From Lachnospiraceae bacterium G41 (GTDB taxonomy: Bacteria; Bacillota; Clostridia; Lachnospirales; Lachnospiraceae): a stretch of 39,268 nucleotides of DNA. The stretch's first letter is position 1, and every line of letters begins with the position of its first letter. Of the stretch, positions 1,276-10,749 are shown piece by piece. The stretch covers positions 110,214-149,481 of the forward strand of contig FNEU01000008.1 of NCBI GenBank assembly GCA_900100245.1, read 5' to 3'. The notes below the pieces were generated by a model. That model saw nothing but the letters and a program-made list of their open reading frames with translations, did no database searches and was not told the DNA's origin. Position numbers and translations under genes: made by a program.

Positions 1276-1315
1276 AACAAAAAAGCAACCAAACAAGACT
1301 GTCTTATCTGATTGC
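1276..1315 (-). terminator. Intrinsic terminator, expression platform of the c-di-GMP riboswitch
   Basis: The minus-strand RNA GCAAUCAGAUAAGA / UCUUGUUUGGUUGC forms a long stem (1285-1315, several G-U pairs, loop CAG), followed by a U-rich run (1276-1284). It lies directly after the aptamer and before the ribosome site of the DUF6273 gene. The aptamer's 3' edge overlaps or abuts the left arm, so ligand binding could switch this hairpin on or off. The direction of switching cannot be read by eye. Confidence 0.75.
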
Positions 1316-1390
1316 AGTTAAACCACCTTTAATTCTTTTAAGGTTTACAACTTTGCGTCCTACCCTCGCGGATAGTTTGCCCTTTATTTG
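1310..1390 (-). ncRNA. Cyclic-di-GMP-I (GEMM-I) riboswitch aptamer
   Basis: Minus-strand RNA contains the two diagnostic blocks in order: GGGCAAAC (1375-1382) and GGACGCAAAG (1351-1360). They are separated by a P2 hairpin CUAUCC-GCGA-GGGUAG with a GNRA tetraloop. A second, AU-rich hairpin follows (AAACCUU...AAGGUGGUUU, about 1318-1346), standing for P3 with its tetraloop receptor. This is the GEMM-I layout. Some GEMM-I variants bind 3',3'-cGAMP; I cannot settle ligand choice by eye. It controls the downstream secreted DUF6273 protein. Confidence 0.88.
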
Positions 1391-1395
1391 AATTC

Positions 1396-1465: not shown

Positions 1466-1468
1466 TTA

Positions 1469-1810
1469 TGGACCAGACGGGGGTCGAACCCGTGTCCAAA
1501 AGCAAATTCCCTCTCCTTCTCCTATCACAGTCAATCATCAGAATTCCCTTCCCTAAGAGACGCTTGACAATCTCTTAAAGTCGGTAGTCCCTAATACGCC
1601 CGTTTGGCCGGGACAAACCAAACGTCGTTTCCTGTCGGTAGATGATGCCCTAAGATATCAAGACAGGTACTGATACCACGGACACGCTGCGATTAGGCAG
1701 CGAAAGCTAATGTTTTATTATCAGCGTTTATATTTAGGTTTGTGAACTGACGCGTCACGGACGGATAGCTTCTAAAGGTGCATTACCCCTGTCGAAACCA
1801 GTACTGGCCC
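1469..1810 (-). ncRNA. ssrA: Transfer-messenger RNA (tmRNA)
   Basis: The 5' end GGGCCAG (1804-1810) pairs over 7 bp with CUGGUCC (1470-1476) as the tRNA-like acceptor stem. It is followed at 1469 by the discriminator A; CCA is not encoded. The 5' part reads ACUGGUUUCGACAGGGGUAAUGC and the 3' part GGACACGGGUUCGACCCCCG (T arm), both typical of tmRNA. The size is about 342 nt. The tag frame ends GCU UUC GCU GCC UAA; the likely proteolysis tag is ADNKTLAFAA (codons 1696-1725, stop 1693-1695). The resume codon GCU is inferred, not proven. It rescues stalled ribosomes with SmpB, whose gene lies 75 bp upstream. Confidence 0.95.
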
Positions 1811-4536: not shown

Positions 4537-6837
4537 CTATCTTAAATCAACACGTCTGATCTTTCCGGAAATTGTCTTAGGCAATTCATCTCTGAATTCG
4601 ACGATTCTCGGATATTTGTAAGGAGCTGTATGCTCTTTTACATAAACCTGGATTTCTTTCTTAAGTTCCTCTGTTCCGACCGTACCCTTTGTAAGAACGA
4701 TGTTTGCTTTTACAACCTGGCCTCTGATTTCGTCGGGTGCAGCAACAACCGCACATTCAAGAACATAAGGAAGTTCCATGATAACTGATTCGATTTCGAA
4801 CGGTCCGATACGATAGCCCGATGACTTGATAACATCATCGACACGGCCGACATACCAGTAGAATCCATCCTCATCTTTCCACGCTGTATCGCCTGTATGA
4901 TAGAATCCGTCATGCCATACTTCTTTGGTCTTCTCTTCGTCTTCGAAGTATCCCTGGAAGAGTCCGTTGGGAACTCCGTTCTGTGTATTGATAACGATTT
5001 CACCTGTTTCACCGACCTTGCAGGGATTGCCGTCGGGATCAACGATATCGATATCGTATAAGGGTGAAGGTCTGCCCATTGAACCAACCTTATTGCTCTC
5101 TCCTACGAAGTTTGCAATAGAAAGTGTGGTTTCTGTCTGACCGAAGCCTTCCATGATACGTACGCCTGTTGCTTTTAAGAACTGGTTGTAAACCTCAGGG
5201 TTCATAGCCTCGCCTGCAACTGTTGCATACTTGATGGAGCTTAAATCATATTTGGTTAAGTCTTCTTTTATGAAGAATCTGTACATTGTTGTAGGTGCAC
5301 AGAATGTTGTTATGTTGTACTGCTTAAACAAAGGAAGGATGTCGTCTGCTTTGAATTTCTCAAAGTCATATACGAATGTTGCAGCCTCGCACATCCACTG
5401 TCCGTAGAGTTTGCCCCAGAGTGCTTTACCCCAGCCTGTATCTGCGATTGTAAAGTGAAGACCGTTGGGGTCTACATTGTGCCAGAACTTTGCTGTAGGG
5501 AAATGTCCCAAAGGATATTTGAAGTTATGAGCAGCAATCTTGGGATATCCTGTAGTTCCTGATGTGAAGAACATAAGCATTGTATCATCGCCGCATGCAA
5601 AATCTTCGGGCTTCTCCCACTCTTTGGAGAATTTGGGCATTTCTTCGTTAAAGTTATGCCAGCCTTTTCTCTGAAGACCGTCTACGCAGATTTTAATCTT
5701 AAGATCCGGACATCTCTTGGCAGCGAATTCAGCCTGATCAGCTACATCGCCTGTACCTGTACAAACTATTGCCTTACAGTGTGCCGCATTGAATCTGTAT
5801 TCGAAATCATGATCCTTTAAAAGATGTGTTGCAGGAATGATGACTGCGCCAATTTTATGAAGAGCAAGGATTGTAAACCAGAACTGATAATGTCTCTTAA
5901 GTACTACGAGAACCTTATCTCCCTTGCCGATTCCGAGAGACTTAAAGTAGTTTGCAGTCTGGTTGGAATAATCGGACATTTCCTTGAATGTAAATCTTCT
6001 TGCTTCCTTAAGCTCGGATAGATAAACCATAGCTGTCTTGGAAGGATTCTTCTTTGCCATTTCATCAACGATATCATAGGCAAAGTTGAATTTCTCGGTG
6101 TTCTTATATGTAATTCCGTTGAAGATTCCGTTTTCGTCTACTGTTGTTTCAATAAACTTTTCGTATATAGGATTCTTAATCTTTGCAAGATCGGTATTGG
6201 TAACAGTATTTGCTCTGACTTTATCCTTAACTTCGGAAAGACCCTTCTTCTCGGGATTCATAACGATTGCATAGATTTCGCAGTCTTCACCGCCGAGCGC
6301 GATTTCATTGTGTGGTGTGGATGAATCGTAGTAGATTGCATCGCCTTCATGAAGGATTTCTACGGAATCACCAACCATCATCTTAAGGTTGCCCTTGATG
6401 ACGATATCCATTTCCTGACCGACATGTGTATTGAAATGATAGGGCGGATTAAGAGCTTCCTCTGAGTAAGGAATTTTTACATAAAAAGGCTCAGCGAGTT
6501 TATTCTTAAAATTCGGAGCAAGGTTTTTATATGTAAAGCCTTCACGTCTGATAATTTCTGTACCTTCACCTTTTCTCGTTACGATGTATTCGGAAAGTGC
6601 GGGTGATTCACCTGTTAAAAGGTCATTCATATCAACTTTACAGGTATTGGCAATCTTGTAGATAAATGTAAAAGGAAAATCTTCCTCACCAGATTCGTAT
6701 CTTACATACTGATCGATATCAAGTCCTATCTTCTTAGCAAGTTCCTGCTGTGAAAGGTTCATAGCCTCTCTTAAATCAACGATTCTTCGTGCGACTTCAT
6801 GGATTTTAAATTCAAGATTCTGATTGTTTTCGCTCAT
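4537..6837 (-). CDS. XRE helix-turn-helix / cupin / acyl-CoA synthetase fusion protein
   Basis: 766 residues in three parts. Residues 13-75 are an XRE-type HTH (LREAMNLSQQELAKKIGLD, then RYESGEEDFPF). Residues 115-205 are a cupin_2 barrel (HFNTHVGQEMDIVIKGNLK, GDAIYYDSSTPHNEIAL). Residues 240-766 are a full adenylate-forming acyl-CoA synthetase of the medium-chain (ACSM) type. Its motifs are FFTSGTTGYPK, the ADTGWGKALWGK region, MEGFGQTETT, YHTGDTAWKDEDG, GRVDDVIKSSGYRIGP and the catalytic Lys near 759 in PKTISGKIRR. It should activate a carboxylic acid to its CoA thioester (AMP + PPi). HTH-cupin repressors are usually separate proteins; here sensor, repressor and enzyme are one chain. All enzyme motifs are intact, so it is probably active. 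RBS AAAGGAGT. A T-box leader precedes it. The substrate is unknown. Confidence 0.93.
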   Translation of the reverse strand: MSENNQNLEFKIHEVARRIVDLREAMNLSQQELAKKIGLDIDQYVRYESGEEDFPFTFIYKIANTCKVDMNDLLTGESPALSEYIVTRKGEGTEIIRREGFTYKNLAPNFKNKLAEPFYVKIPYSEEALNPPYHFNTHVGQEMDIVIKGNLKMMVGDSVEILHEGDAIYYDSSTPHNEIALGGEDCEIYAIVMNPEKKGLSEVKDKVRANTVTNTDLAKIKNPIYEKFIETTVDENGIFNGITYKNTEKFNFAYDIVDEMAKKNPSKTAMVYLSELKEARRFTFKEMSDYSNQTANYFKSLGIGKGDKVLVVLKRHYQFWFTILALHKIGAVIIPATHLLKDHDFEYRFNAAHCKAIVCTGTGDVADQAEFAAKRCPDLKIKICVDGLQRKGWHNFNEEMPKFSKEWEKPEDFACGDDTMLMFFTSGTTGYPKIAAHNFKYPLGHFPTAKFWHNVDPNGLHFTIADTGWGKALWGKLYGQWMCEAATFVYDFEKFKADDILPLFKQYNITTFCAPTTMYRFFIKEDLTKYDLSSIKYATVAGEAMNPEVYNQFLKATGVRIMEGFGQTETTLSIANFVGESNKVGSMGRPSPLYDIDIVDPDGNPCKVGETGEIVINTQNGVPNGLFQGYFEDEEKTKEVWHDGFYHTGDTAWKDEDGFYWYVGRVDDVIKSSGYRIGPFEIESVIMELPYVLECAVVAAPDEIRGQVVKANIVLTKGTVGTEELKKEIQVYVKEHTAPYKYPRIVEFRDELPKTISGKIRRVDLR

Positions 6838-6910
6838 GTTTACTCCTTTTTAAAATGTAATCAACGATACGCGTTGAAATCTTAGAAGAATTCTCGAGTT
6901 TAGGGACTTA

Positions 6911-6948
6911 GAATAAATAAAGCCCGTCTCAATCGCTTGAGACGGGCT
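6911..6948 (-). terminator. T-box regulated intrinsic terminator
   Basis: The minus strand AGCCCGTCTCAA-GCGA-TTGAGACGGGCT (12-bp perfect stem, 6921-6932 with 6937-6948) runs into TTTATTTATT. Its 5' arm CUCAA and CCCG can instead pair with UUGAG and CGGG around the T-box sequence. This gives the mutually exclusive antiterminator. Confidence 0.93.
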
Positions 6949-7160
6949 AACCCGCGGTACCACTCAAATTGCATCCTGAAGATGCCTCCTCTTCTGACTC
7001 CAACAAGCCAAGTGCCTTAACGTGGCATAACGGGAATTGTCTACTTTTTTCATTTCGGAATTCCAACTCGGAAGGGATAGCTGAAAGAATTGAATTATCG
7101 CCTCACACCAACCGGCGACTCTCTGAAAATTCGACATCAGACGCAGTCTTCGTCACAGTT
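6921..7160 (-). promoter_or_regulatory. T-box leader (tRNA-sensing riboswitch), specifier probably AUC (Ile)
   Basis: Minus-strand RNA shows all main T-box parts in order. They are a 5' GACGAAGA element (about 7147-7154); an upper stem I with CAGAGAG and GGUUGGUGUGAGGCGA; the 3' side ending CUUCCGAG; the AGUAG element (AAAGUAGAC); the T-box GAGUGGUACCGCGGG (6951-6965); and the terminator. GAAG (7148-7151) pairs with CUUC (7071-7074) and CUGA (7137-7140) with UCAG (7081-7084). This leaves the specifier loop CUAUCC, whose best codon is AUC (7076-7078), isoleucine. The antiterminator bulge UGGU (6959-6962) needs a tRNA with discriminator A, as tRNA-Ile has. The base after AUC is C where a purine is usual, so the codon call is less sure than the T-box itself. 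It belongs to the HTH-cupin-acyl-CoA synthetase gene. This leader fills most of the 464-bp stretch between the two acyl-CoA ligase genes. Confidence 0.93.
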
Positions 7161-7189
7161 TTTAAAAATAATTTTCAATTGCTTTTTTT

Positions 7190-7218
7190 AAACTAACACT
7201 ATTTTTTTATTATGTCAA
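7190..7218 (-). promoter_or_regulatory. Promoter of the T-box transcript
   Basis: Minus strand: -35 TTGACA (7213-7218), spacer 17 bp, -10 TAGTTT (7190-7195). The start would lie near 7183, about 25 nt before the stem I elements. The remaining 7219-7301 sequence is A/T-rich and holds no further gene that I can support. Confidence 0.65.
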
Positions 7219-7301
7219 CAAAAAAATTATTTGTTTTCAAATATTTTTACACCATCATCAGTCCCTACAATGATACGATTGCACATATCTTTTACCATTT
7301 C

Positions 7302-9023
7302 TTATGTTTCTTTTTCTTTGTTAGCGCTTTTAGCCTTCTCTTCTTCAATCAATTGAGTAAACGCTACTTTACCCACAAGAGTTTTTGGTAGTTCTTTTCT
7401 GAACTCATATTCGAAAGGCCAGGAATACTTTGCAAGATTCTTCTCGCAAACATCTCTAATCTTTTGTCTTATCTCATCTGTGGGCTCATATCCTTCACGA
7501 AGTACGATAAAAGCTTTTGCAACCTGAACCTTAAGCGGATGGTCGATTCCGATTACACACGAAAGAAGTACTTCGGGAACAGAGTCGATAATATTCTCAA
7601 GATACTGAGGATAAATATTGTAGCCCGAGGAAATAATCATTCTCTTGATTCTCTGCTTAAAGAATAAAAATCCGTCCTCATCCATGTATCCCAAATCGCC
7701 GGTATGAAGCCATACCTTACCGTCCTTGTGTAATCTTAAGGTATTGGCGGTTTCTTCAGGCTCGTTTAAGTATCCCTTCATGACAGTAGGCCCTGATAAA
7801 ACAATCTCTCCGTCCTCTCCGTAAGGCATTTCTTCAAGTGTCTCGGGATTAATGACTTTATAATACGTATCGGGATAAGGGATACCTATACTTCCGGCTT
7901 TATATTTGTTAACAGGAATTAAACAGCTTCCTGTAACGCATTCTGTCAGACCGTAACCCTCTCTTACCTTTGCATCCGAACCATGCTCTTCAAGGAACTT
8001 GTCGACCTTTAATTTAAGGCTCTCGGATAGCGAATCTCCTCCGCTGATTACAAGATGAAGGAACGATAAATCAACGCCTTCCATCTTTTTGTTTTTAAGC
8101 ATAACTTCAAAAAGAGACGGCACGCCCGCAATTATATTGGGCTTGTATTTGGTCAAAAGCCTGTCAAATTCTGCGGCGTTAAACTGAGGCAGTATAACAG
8201 CCGTAGCGCCCAGATAAAGCACGGTATGAACACAGATACCGAGTCCGAATCCGTGGAAAACAGGCATAATCGAGAGAATTCTGTCTCCCTCATGAAGCGT
8301 TTTGCAAATCTCCACGCTCTGAATCGCCAGTGCATTGAAATTAAGATTTGTAAGTTCGATACCTTTGGGAAATCCGCTCGTACCGCCCGAATAAAGTATG
8401 GCGGCTGTATCGTTCTTATCGGGCTTATATAACGTCTCACCCGTATACTGTTTGCCGCTCTTTATAAAGTCACTCCATTTGATGTTAATATCACATTTTT
8501 CGAAATGCAGTTTTCTGCCCTTTTTCATAAAATAACCGACACCGATTGCAACGGGCATCGAATCCGCAACACTCACCTGAACTATTTTTTCAAGTTTTGT
8601 TTCAGGTAAAATATGTATGATTTTATTTAAAGCCAGATCGATTGTGACTATAATCCTGCTTTCGGTCAGGTTTACATAATATTTGATTTCGTTTTCGGCC
8701 GACAAAGGATGAATCATATTGGCCACTGCGCCGATTTTATTGACGGCATAAAAAGAAATTAAAGCCTCGGGAGTATTGGGCATGCATATGCTGACGATGT
8801 CCTTGGGCTTTACTCCCATCTGAATAAAGGAGCGCGCTGCAGCGTCTATCTGTTCGAGAAATTCTTTGTAGGTGGCACATTTACCGAAATAATTGTATGC
8901 TGTCAGCCCTTCTCTCTTTTTTGCCGATTCTTCCAAAAGCAGATAAATCGAATATTCAGGATATTCCAGATGTTGTCTTACTCCGTCATATGACGAATAC
9001 CAGGGTGTCTTTACCTGTTCCAT
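7302..9023 (-). CDS. AMP-dependent fatty-acid-CoA ligase (or acyl-ACP synthetase)
   Basis: 573 residues, ANL superfamily. The nucleotide loop is YSGGTSGFPKGIELTN, with GG in place of the more common TSGTTG start. Other motifs: YGLTECVTGS, WLHTGDLGYMDEDG, and IISSGYNIYP; the C-terminal Lys lies in ELPKTLVGKVAFTQL. It is closest in look to long-chain fatty-acid-CoA ligases. The plsC-like gene ends 17 bp upstream, giving an acyl-activation plus acyltransfer pair similar in logic to the two-domain Aas protein, so a role in recycling or importing fatty acids into phospholipid is likely. RBS AAGGACG. The C-terminal tail is Lys/Glu-rich (EEEKAKSANKEKET). Last gene of the long cysS operon. Whether CoA or ACP is the acceptor cannot be told. 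Confidence 0.88.
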   Translation of the reverse strand: MEQVKTPWYSSYDGVRQHLEYPEYSIYLLLEESAKKREGLTAYNYFGKCATYKEFLEQIDAAARSFIQMGVKPKDIVSICMPNTPEALISFYAVNKIGAVANMIHPLSAENEIKYYVNLTESRIIVTIDLALNKIIHILPETKLEKIVQVSVADSMPVAIGVGYFMKKGRKLHFEKCDINIKWSDFIKSGKQYTGETLYKPDKNDTAAILYSGGTSGFPKGIELTNLNFNALAIQSVEICKTLHEGDRILSIMPVFHGFGLGICVHTVLYLGATAVILPQFNAAEFDRLLTKYKPNIIAGVPSLFEVMLKNKKMEGVDLSFLHLVISGGDSLSESLKLKVDKFLEEHGSDAKVREGYGLTECVTGSCLIPVNKYKAGSIGIPYPDTYYKVINPETLEEMPYGEDGEIVLSGPTVMKGYLNEPEETANTLRLHKDGKVWLHTGDLGYMDEDGFLFFKQRIKRMIISSGYNIYPQYLENIIDSVPEVLLSCVIGIDHPLKVQVAKAFIVLREGYEPTDEIRQKIRDVCEKNLAKYSWPFEYEFRKELPKTLVGKVAFTQLIEEEKAKSANKEKET

Positions 9024-9040: not shown

Positions 9041-9679
9041 TTATTTTAAGTATTGTTTTTTTAAGAATAAAAATTTTTCTTTTCGCGGTTTGAAATTGTT
9101 TTCAATCATCATTTGTTTTACGGTGTCGTACAAAAGCTGATTGGCCTCTTCCACTGAAAGATCTTTTATATCCAGCGGTTCACCGTATGTAATCTTTAGC
9201 GTGCGGCTCCTGAATTTGTACTCGCCTGTCACCGCATAAGGTATTAACTTACAGCCCGTCCTCTGTGCCATTACTACGGCTCCCGGCTTAAAAGGAAGCA
9301 GCGTTTCTTCGGTGAAATTTCTCTTTCCCTCAGGTGATACATTTATCGCATAACCTCTGTTTAAGTAATCGACAGCCGCATTTAATGCACCGCCGTTATG
9401 TTTTGCCTTTGTATCCACGGGTATCGAGCCTATCGATTTAAACAGCCATCCGAATTTACCGTCATGCAAATCCTTGTTGGCAAGCGAATGAACCACTCTC
9501 GGTGTAGATGTATAAACATATATTGGATCCAATATGCAGTTGTGATTGCCCGCTATAACGCAGGGTTCTTTCTTGGGTATAACAGATTTGTTCACGTATT
9601 TCGGATTGTAAAGAATCCAAAAAAGTATTGTGAAAAGCGGTTGAAAAAATCTGTATACCAGCGCATCTGATGGTTTCAT
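9041..9679 (-). CDS. PlsC-like 1-acylglycerol-phosphate acyltransferase
   Basis: 212 residues, normal for the short PlsC family. The catalytic HX4D is GNHNCILDPI (His46, Asp51) and the acceptor-phosphate motif is SPEGKRNF, a variant of FPEGTRS. A further conserved block is FKPGAVVMAQRTGCKLIPYAV. A hydrophobic N-terminal stretch (residues 11-25) suggests membrane association. It should transfer an acyl chain to a lysophospholipid or lysophosphatidic acid. The ATG overlaps the stop of the upstream membrane protein gene by 4 bases (ATGA), implying coupled translation, and an acyl-CoA/ACP ligase gene follows. Exact acceptor unknown. Confidence 0.9.
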   Translation of the reverse strand: MKPSDALVYRFFQPLFTILFWILYNPKYVNKSVIPKKEPCVIAGNHNCILDPIYVYTSTPRVVHSLANKDLHDGKFGWLFKSIGSIPVDTKAKHNGGALNAAVDYLNRGYAINVSPEGKRNFTEETLLPFKPGAVVMAQRTGCKLIPYAVTGEYKFRSRTLKITYGEPLDIKDLSVEEANQLLYDTVKQMMIENNFKPRKEKFLFLKKQYLK

Positions 9680-10749
9680 GAAAAGTTTTCTTCCCTGTTT
9701 TTCGCAAACATCTCTTTATATTCTTTTATCTTTTCAGATAAATCATTTATCTTAACAGCACTTGTATCTATCTCTGCCATCATATCTTTTAAATCTTTTT
9801 TGGTCTGATCGATACCTAGCTTATCTGCTACAAAAAGCGCAAATTCAGAATCGGATATATAAGGAAGTTTGGTAATAAAATTGACGAGATTTATAATTAC
9901 CACTATTCCTGTGACCATAAAGAAAATAACAATTACAATATTAAGAATCGGAACCAGCTCAGGTTCGATAAAATTTGAAGAAATAATAAGAGCAATAATG
10001 GTAGCGACATGAAGAAGAATCAGAATAGAAAACCAAATTATACTTTGTTTGCATTTATCTTCATTTATAATCATTCCTTCGACTTCTTTTTCGAGAACCT
10101 TTTTACGGTTGGATAATCTTAAATGCTCAACTTTAAGTTTGTTGAAATCAATCCATTCGTTTGTGACTTCGATATAGTTGTTATAAGCATCAAAATTAAA
10201 ATCGGGCTTTCTTTTACCCGAAGCAATTTCTTCATCAAATATCTTATCGTTCTTTTCCTTAAGTTCAAAATAAGCCTTTGTATTCTCATCAAGCGATGTA
10301 CGATTATCTTTTATATTCTTTTTAAGATTGGATAATTTGGCAAGATTTACAGTCTCTTTTTCATCGAGATTTTCAACGCCGATTTTTTCTGCGAATGCCG
10401 CGCCCGAAGCCGATTTAGATGTTGCGGCAAAAAATCTTACAAGAAAAATAATTGTGTATATAAGAAAGCCGAGAGCAAAAAATCCGAGTCCGCCCGAACC
10501 TAGGTAAATTGCCATGGTAAGCCGCCAGTCGGCTTTTATATTAATAAGATATCCTGAGGATAAAATAATCAAAAAGGCGCAAACAATTATAACGGTAAAA
10601 AATTTTACCGTATATCTCCTCCTTAGTTCGCGAACCCCCTTAGCCTCTGACTCGCAAAGCATTACCTCATTTTCAAGATTGTAAATATCACTTTCCAAAA
10701 ATGATATTTTTTGAAGAAGTCTGTCTTCCTCTTCGGTGGCTACTCTCAT
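9676..10749 (-). CDS. Coiled-coil membrane protein with internal duplication (unknown function)
   Basis: 357 residues, not recognised as a known family. The order is: coiled coil (residues 4-40), two transmembrane helices (about 48-70 and 78-105), a soluble Lys/Glu-rich coiled coil (about 110-240), two more helices (about 247-292), then a final coiled coil (about 300-350). The two halves look like copies. After each helix pair comes an FA-x-K-hydrophobic-G motif (FAEKIGVENLDEKE and FVADKLGIDQTKKD) followed by a heptad-rich segment. No signal peptide and no catalytic motif are visible. Its start overlaps the 76-residue gene upstream, and plsC overlaps its end, both by ATGA. It is therefore translated with a sigma factor operon and lipid genes, and might act in membrane organisation. 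That is a guess. Confidence 0.8.
   Translation of the reverse strand: MRVATEEEDRLLQKISFLESDIYNLENEVMLCESEAKGVRELRRRYTVKFFTVIIVCAFLIILSSGYLINIKADWRLTMAIYLGSGGLGFFALGFLIYTIIFLVRFFAATSKSASGAAFAEKIGVENLDEKETVNLAKLSNLKKNIKDNRTSLDENTKAYFELKEKNDKIFDEEIASGKRKPDFNFDAYNNYIEVTNEWIDFNKLKVEHLRLSNRKKVLEKEVEGMIINEDKCKQSIIWFSILILLHVATIIALIISSNFIEPELVPILNIVIVIFFMVTGIVVIINLVNFITKLPYISDSEFALFVADKLGIDQTKKDLKDMMAEIDTSAVKINDLSEKIKEYKEMFAKNREENFS

Follow-up and report, generated by a model that had tools for sequence, protein, structure and literature searches.

Why would a T-box leader RNA stand before a gene for an acyl-CoA synthetase? This question is raised by a stretch of 39,268 nucleotides (the whole of which is called the window here) from Lachnospiraceae bacterium G41, a gut bacterium close to rumen Lachnospiraceae. 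On the minus strand of the window a T-box precedes a gene encoding a fusion of an XRE-type helix-turn-helix (HTH) domain, a cupin domain and an AMP-forming acyl-CoA synthetase. The original prediction for this locus, made from the letters alone, had left the specifier codon, the decisive piece, unplaced; it is read here as AUC, an isoleucine codon. We consider it highly likely that the leader is a transcription-terminating T-box responding to tRNA-Ile(GAU), and that the gene under its control makes an AMP-forming 2-methylbutyryl-CoA synthetase for a route from 2-methylbutyrate to isoleucine.

The leader upstream of the synthetase gene is a T-box

The Rfam covariance model RF00230 matched the leader over its full length (model positions 1-219 of 219) with 99.3 bits, above the gathering score of 93 (E 6.9e-21), which bears out the full T-box that had been claimed to precede the gene. 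The claimed terminator was recovered as well, together with an alternative antiterminator fold. The latter, with UGGUACC in its bulge, is the minimum free energy structure of positions 6934-6990 on the minus strand, yet its z-score of -0.8 is not better than that of shuffled sequences; it is also present in the consensus of 15 leaders, across which 22 of the 44 consensus pairs were changed on both sides. Counted by eye and with the T-rich tail to 6911 included, the distance from the end of the terminator to the ATG is 73 nt, the spacing given originally, and this gap holds no open reading frame (ORF) of at least 80 aa, in agreement with the claim that no gene lies between. The claim of a promoter belonging to the leader did not hold up in the same way: a consensus scan of the minus strand from 6830 to 7310 found none, and by eye a perfect TTGACA (7213-7218) was seen, followed after 17 nt by TGTTAGTTT, a weak extended -10 element. 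A full-length score above the gathering cut-off, a conserved specifier in register and a terminator competing with a UGGN antiterminator, the marks of membership in the T-box family, were all found. On these features the leader is a real isoleucine T-box, a switch of a known kind that is predicted to work by antitermination on uncharged tRNA. The features of the locus are collected in Table 1.

Table 1. Coordinates of the leader and the ligase gene in the window
Feature	Positions	Strand	Basis
T-box leader RNA, stem I to antiterminator, isoleucine class	6935..7165	-	RF00230, 99.3 bits; pair changes in 15 leaders
Specifier codon AUC (Ile), one base ahead of helix CUUC (7071-7074)	7076..7078	-	register of 5 same-genome controls; conservation
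UGGU, pairing partner of the tRNA 3' end; asks for discriminator A73	6959..6962	-	sequence; tRNA-Ser comparison
Intrinsic terminator of the leader	6921..6948	-	12 pairs; minimum free energy -22.2 kcal/mol, z -7.3 against shuffled sequences
Possible promoter TTGACA-17-TAGTTT with TGn	7190..7218	-	by eye; consensus scan negative
XRE-HTH, cupin and AMP-forming acyl-CoA synthetase fusion, 766 aa, predicted 2-methylbutyryl-CoA synthetase	4537..6837	-	Pfam; 3ETC alignment

The specifier codon is AUC

In the Rfam alignment the specifier position is occupied by AUC (7078-7076), followed by one base and then by the helix CUUC/GAAG. The host genome contains six T-boxes in all, of which the five others served as register controls. 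In the same register all five gave the expected codon, namely UUC before pheST, ACC before thrS, UGG before the trp operon and before a TrpB-like gene, and CUC before a LeuA-like gene (pheST, thrS and trp were identified by eye from the sequence), and in all five a single base separates the specifier from the helix. Their UGGN sequences likewise fit the discriminator bases of the host tRNAs for Phe (A), Thr (U), Trp (G) and Leu (A), which were read by eye off the acceptor stems.

AUC was found in all 64 readable rows of an alignment of 66 leader rows, in which three loci are entered twice. In the same rows the base before AUC varies (U, C, A or G), as does the base after it (C, A, G or U), and the helix next to the specifier covaries, being GAAG/CUUC in 55 rows, GAGG/CCUC in eight and GAGG/CCCC in one. 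A specifier UAU (Tyr) was ruled out, since in L025, L026 and 14 of 57 loci from named genomes AUC is preceded by a base other than U.

A second gene links this codon to isoleucine. IlvA, which catalyses the committed step of isoleucine synthesis, was above cut-off in four genomes of the genus, and a T-box was found before ilvA in all three that were examined, at 81.5-84.4 bits and thus below the gathering score of 93. These leaders share the specifier loop UAUCCCUUCCGAG with the ligase leader; being near-copies, the three count as about one observation. In passages of Wels et al. 2008 (PMC2494555), the specifier is stated to have agreed with gene function in all verified cases.

The leader-ligase pair is conserved

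Among 31 genomes of the genus, an orthologue of at least 63% identity was found in 29 (27 full length, two partial). The T-box motif lies upstream in 25 of these 29 loci; in the other four the contig ends inside the gene or at most 151 nt from it. Twenty-three of the leaders are complete and all 23 read AUC, the remaining two being cut. A further set comprised the best 80 loci, out of a larger number, from named genomes of rumen and gut Lachnospiraceae, Ruminococcus flavefaciens (FD-1, 007c, SAb67), other Oscillospiraceae and Clostridia; they are 62-94% identical to the window protein, and six loci are common to both sets. The motif was present at 60 of these 80, including L114, whose full leader with TGGTCCC was missed by the first motif pattern. 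The specifier could be read in 57 of them and was AUC in every case, R. flavefaciens included; of the other three, two are cut by a contig end and one (L070) lacks the specifier stretch. At two of the 80 loci the upstream sequence was too short to judge.

A tree was built from 78 of the best 80 loci. L097 and L103, for which no ORF had been called, were left out; both read open in the match frame, with W-W-K-W, TTFCAP and GFGQTE stretches. The 18 loci at which the motif is missing group in a single clade, mostly of Ruminococcus paralogues, with support of 100 in the Shimodaira-Hasegawa-like approximate likelihood ratio test (SH-aLRT). Two other loci belong to this clade: L069, where the motif is present, and one with too little sequence to judge. 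The T-box label requires two changes on the tree versus 16.4 in shuffles. As 007c and SAb67 each have a second copy with an AUC leader, the T-box state looks ancestral. The possibility that the leader is a stray copy, which a search for the pair in relatives had been proposed to address, was thus ruled out by conservation and tree. Neither a missing covariance-model hit nor a leader present only as a stray copy, two of the outcomes that were to refute the original prediction, was observed.

Two observations were made alongside. In the clade without the motif (L055, L092 and 16 more named loci), AGGAG(C/T)AGGCTT stands near the start codon in four of five upstream regions inspected. In R. flavefaciens 007c, two more AUC leaders (L243, L245) run into contig ends, so this strain probably has three leader-ligase copies, collapsed in the assembly.

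The ligase resembles a 2-methylbutyrate-activating enzyme

The domain order named in the original prediction was confirmed by Pfam (HTH_3/HTH_19, Cupin_2, AMP-binding and AMP-binding_C). The top solved relative of the fusion is 3ETC (MacsMa) with 662.8 bits, the next reaching 356.2. The residues W452, W469, K471, W474, C513 and G566 are identical to W237, W254, K256, W259, C298 and G351 of MacsMa (in 3ETC, chain numbering equals native numbering plus 23). We take W237, W254, K256 and C298 to be pocket positions and 351 to be the number of the glycine, the set of six reportedly coming from a 2010 abstract; the C-terminal Lys759 of the fusion is presumably catalytic. The pocket WWKWCG was found in all 78 aligned loci of the best 80 named loci, and the six-residue pocket was not found in the TIM-ligase described below or in a FadD-like protein. 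Excerpts of a study of MacsMa (PMC10455477) describe a preference for 2-methylbutyrate and a pocket shaped by Trp259 and by a glycine that replaces a tryptophan of acetyl-CoA synthetase. Taken together, the window ligase is probably a 2-methylbutyryl-CoA synthetase. The XRE-cupin part might, as a guess, serve autoregulation or acyl sensing.

The host lacks the classical middle of the isoleucine pathway

IlvC and IlvD are both absent from the same 26 of the 31 genus genomes, many of which are incomplete, the 99.7% complete host included; both are present in all 14 control genomes. The classical isoleucine pathway, as judged by these two enzymes, was therefore not found in the host. IlvC is also missing in nine of 12 genomes behind the named loci (completeness not given), among them R. 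flavefaciens 007c and SAb67, and present in FD-1, KHP2 and SIG323. The host has four POR-gamma matches, one of them within a VorB-type operon, and both VorB (543.3 bits, cut-off 399) and IlvE (446.5, cut-off 307) are above cut-off. It thus encodes a ferredoxin-dependent branched 2-oxoacid oxidoreductase and a branched-chain transaminase, the two enzymes by which a reductive-carboxylation route was judged. The operon (L042:2779-8750, G000:C21) consists of a P-loop gene and the VOR genes, followed by separate XRE-cupin and ligase genes that are together 46% identical to the window protein and have no T-box. Ligase, oxidoreductase and transaminase are hence present and the classical middle is missing.

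Such a route agrees with published physiology. For rumen cultures, the part of one report that we draw on (PMC7356843) gives 2-methylbutyrate as precursor of isoleucine and isobutyrate of valine, has 3-methylbutyrate enter leucine, and states that phenylacetate can give phenylalanine. An excerpt of another report (PMC2812497) states that M. ruminantium requires 2-methylbutyrate, probably for isoleucine via reductive carboxylation.

The AUC specifier is shared with ilvA in relatives, IlvC and IlvD are missing, VOR and IlvE are there, and the closest solved enzyme is MacsMa; together these findings point to synthesis of isoleucine from 2-methylbutyrate. The general idea of the original prediction, that the acid feeds amino-acid synthesis through activation and ferredoxin-dependent reductive carboxylation, is on this sequence evidence well supported and can be narrowed to isoleucine and 2-methylbutyrate. 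Of the acids it named, 2-methylbutyrate is favored by the codon, the ilvA loop and MacsMa; neither isobutyrate nor an aryl acid was picked out for the window gene. When isoleucine is short, uncharged tRNA-Ile would bind the leader by pairing at two sites, AUC in stem I and UGGU in the antiterminator; the terminator would then fail to form, and the ligase would be produced. It would convert 2-methylbutyrate to 2-methylbutyryl-CoA, which an oxidoreductase of the VOR kind encoded elsewhere, possibly that of the VorB-type operon, would carboxylate to 2-oxo-3-methylvalerate, and IlvE would transaminate the latter to isoleucine.

Alternative explanations

Several findings speak against the proposed isoleucine route or limit it. 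Neither tRNA-Ile(GAU) nor any tRNA-Ala is among the tRNA genes detected in the host assembly; the rRNA spacer region, which often carries both, is probably absent from this assembly. Two paralogues, ACS2 and the ligase of a fab-type cluster, share all six pocket residues, so the pocket does not discriminate among them. The best NCBIfam model of the fusion, MbcS (NF047394), scores 454.5 bits against a cut-off of 850. No T-box motif was detected at 18 of the best 80 named loci, each with at least 300 nt upstream, by motif pattern and not by covariance model. The VOR operon of the host is not preceded by any of the six T-boxes of the genome. The ligase and its leader also occur in the five genus genomes that possess IlvC and IlvD (four read AUC, one is cut), so the ligase is not simply a substitute. 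In G002 and G011, which belong to the genus too, both IlvC and an orthologue of at least 60% identity are missing, so the route is not universal there. Outside the genus, none of the 68 genomes in that comparison shows an orthologue at this level.

The same evidence bears on three other explanations. The ligase might feed anteiso branched-chain fatty acids via FabH, isoleucine shortage being read as a shortage of the usual source of 2-methylbutyryl-CoA. According to a study of S. aureus (PMC10026030), MbcS activates 2-methylbutyrate and isobutyrate and supplies FabH, which together with the best NCBIfam model and the paralogue in the apparent fab-type cluster (L043; ORFs named by eye, ligase domains scanned) favors such a role. 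We nevertheless regard it as unlikely, given the loop shared with ilvA, the lack of IlvC and IlvD in the host, and the Phe- and Tyr-read T-boxes that precede a PaaK-like ligase and a ligase-IorAB operon (see below). The aromatic acids of these ligases are, to our knowledge, not usual FabH primers. Still less probable is that the leader responds to isoleucine while the ligase acts on some other short or branched acid, such as isobutyrate or propionate, with an indirect link to isoleucine. Such ligases can be broad, MacsMa adenylating C3-C8 acids, and the VOR-linked paralogue has an identical pocket; however, the excerpts on MacsMa (PMC10455477) also state that the enzyme prefers 2-methylbutyrate, with which the second step was completed, and that many other acyl-adenylates were unsuitable for this step. 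Among the acids named, the isoleucine skeleton occurs in 2-methylbutyrate only. A serine reading of the T-box (UCN), in which the conserved A would be structural, is hardly credible. The variable fourth base does make UCN a serine codon in all cases, but the register with one base between specifier and helix in all five controls and the identical loop of the ilvA leader contradict it, and all four tRNA-Ser genes detected in the host genome have G73, which would demand UGGC and mismatches the UGGU of the leader. Control of a 2-methylbutyrate ligase by an isoleucine T-box therefore stays the preferred explanation.

Further T-boxes precede acid-CoA ligases

A second T-box ligase locus of the host (L038:2844-7128, G000:C8) has a CUC (Leu) leader, a LeuA-like gene and a gene for an 843-aa fusion of a TIM barrel with an AMP-ligase. 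In L084, L088 and L100 a LeuA-like and TIM-ligase-like pair directly precedes the AUC-ligase gene; in L094, where the contig starts, the TIM-ligase part alone does so. R. flavefaciens 007c has two TIM-ligase genes with leaders read as CUC by eye.

In a more distant metagenome-assembled genome, RGIG7510 (G106; 1.3 Mb, without an IlvC match), the T-box model matched six times, and five of these matches were read together with their genes. CUC stands before a LeuA-like and a TIM-ligase gene and AUC before an XRE-cupin-ligase fusion. Both leaders are no more than about 10 kb away from another T-box, which precedes a PaaK-like gene (525.7 bits, below the cut-off of 646.3) and an ACT gene. UAC (Tyr) precedes a ligase gene followed by IorA (750.9 vs 650.9) and IorB (297 vs 230), and CUC (Leu, by eye) precedes a P-loop gene, VorB (543.9 vs 399) and VorA-like and VorC-like genes. 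The sixth T-box precedes pheS-like and pheT-like genes (L230, by sequence inspection). The Rfam frame of the PaaK leader, one base off, gives UCC. Its specifier is more likely UUC (Phe), judging from UGGU, from the register GAA-UUC-N-helix, and from a relative that has UUC-A-UCCUG together with a covarying helix. Forty-eight of 60 genomes have PaaK-like matches. Of 30 loci examined, eight (92-100% identity) have the leader and the other 22 (60-82%) have none by motif, L256 with less than 300 nt upstream.

The operons of RGIG7510 at L228 and L229 are candidates for aryl- and branched-acid assimilation, and the specifiers of these leaders would fall on fitting acids, which the ligases presumably activate. 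T-boxes with four specificities or more (Ile, Leu, Phe and Tyr, all found side by side in RGIG7510) probably form a regulon that responds to amino-acid starvation. It would switch on acid-CoA ligases, as well as ferredoxin-dependent 2-oxoacid oxidoreductases in two cases, and thereby let rumen and gut anaerobes rebuild amino acids from the waste acids of their neighbors; the isoleucine member would be the activating gene of the rumen route from 2-methylbutyrate to isoleucine.

Neighboring genes and other observations

A LysR gene and a sodium:solute symporter gene, mutually divergent, adjoin the ligase gene in several loci (L228:7117-9675; L088, L094, L102, L109) and may point to acid uptake. 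Directly 3' of the ligase gene, a gene of about 480 aa with an ACT domain and a weak metallo-beta-lactamase match (two members scanned) was found in 007c (L242:407-1849, minus strand) and in seven named loci (cluster c2); as a guess, its product senses isoleucine or hydrolyses acyl-CoA. Other recurring neighbors, one member of each being inspected, were set aside: c1 (CAP and dockerin), c10 and c14 (two-component), c7 (RimP), c9 (MaoC) and c15 (CBAH). A T-box reading UGG (Trp) stands before a stand-alone TrpB-like gene, apart from the T-box of the trp operon, in L041:2276-4010 and in 007c (L235). Elsewhere in the window, a 357-aa protein (9676-10749, minus strand) with no Pfam or NCBIfam match at E 0.001 is encoded in a gene row together with an acyltransferase and a FadD-like ligase, and a c-di-GMP-I riboswitch (1310-1391, minus strand) lies directly downstream of the transfer-messenger RNA gene (1466-1810, minus strand), with smpB at 1886-2350.

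Significance and comparison with known systems

Cellulose-degrading rumen bacteria use branched-chain acids as growth factors, and these acids are reportedly fed to ruminants as isoacids, as in a yak trial. 2-Methylbutyrate is a waste acid of neighboring microbes, from which the proposed route probably lets the cell make isoleucine. The literature searched names no candidate for the gene that commits 2-methylbutyrate to isoleucine or for its control; the leader-ligase pair supplies both. The specifier codon may moreover indicate which acid an unassigned acid-CoA ligase of a gut anaerobe acts on. The main text of the T-box surveys searched, supplementary gene lists not being covered, contains neither the term "CoA ligase" nor the term "CoA synthetase". 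As far as our searches reach, with the main T-box surveys and supplementary lists outside them, a T-box on an acid-CoA ligase and the surrounding regulon have not been described.

The leader shares with isoleucine-class T-boxes, which stand before ileS and ilv operons, a full RF00230 match, AUC, UGGU and the terminator and antiterminator, but its target is an acid-CoA ligase. The ligase is about 300 bits closer to MacsMa than to the next solved structure over residues 247-766, with six identical pocket positions; the XRE-cupin part lies outside this match, and whereas MacsMa is an archaeal enzyme of Methanosarcina acetivorans, the substrate of the window protein is predicted from its sequence. 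MbcS of S. aureus is the best NCBIfam model, but the score stays below its cut-off, and MbcS feeds branched fatty acids according to the study cited above (PMC10026030). The closest parallel in physiology is older. Robinson and Allison reportedly described in 1969 the formation of isoleucine from 2-methylbutyric acid in rumen anaerobes, and we know of no gene assigned to the activating enzyme of that route. Acid, product and habitat are the same as those proposed here, where a candidate gene and its regulator are now added.

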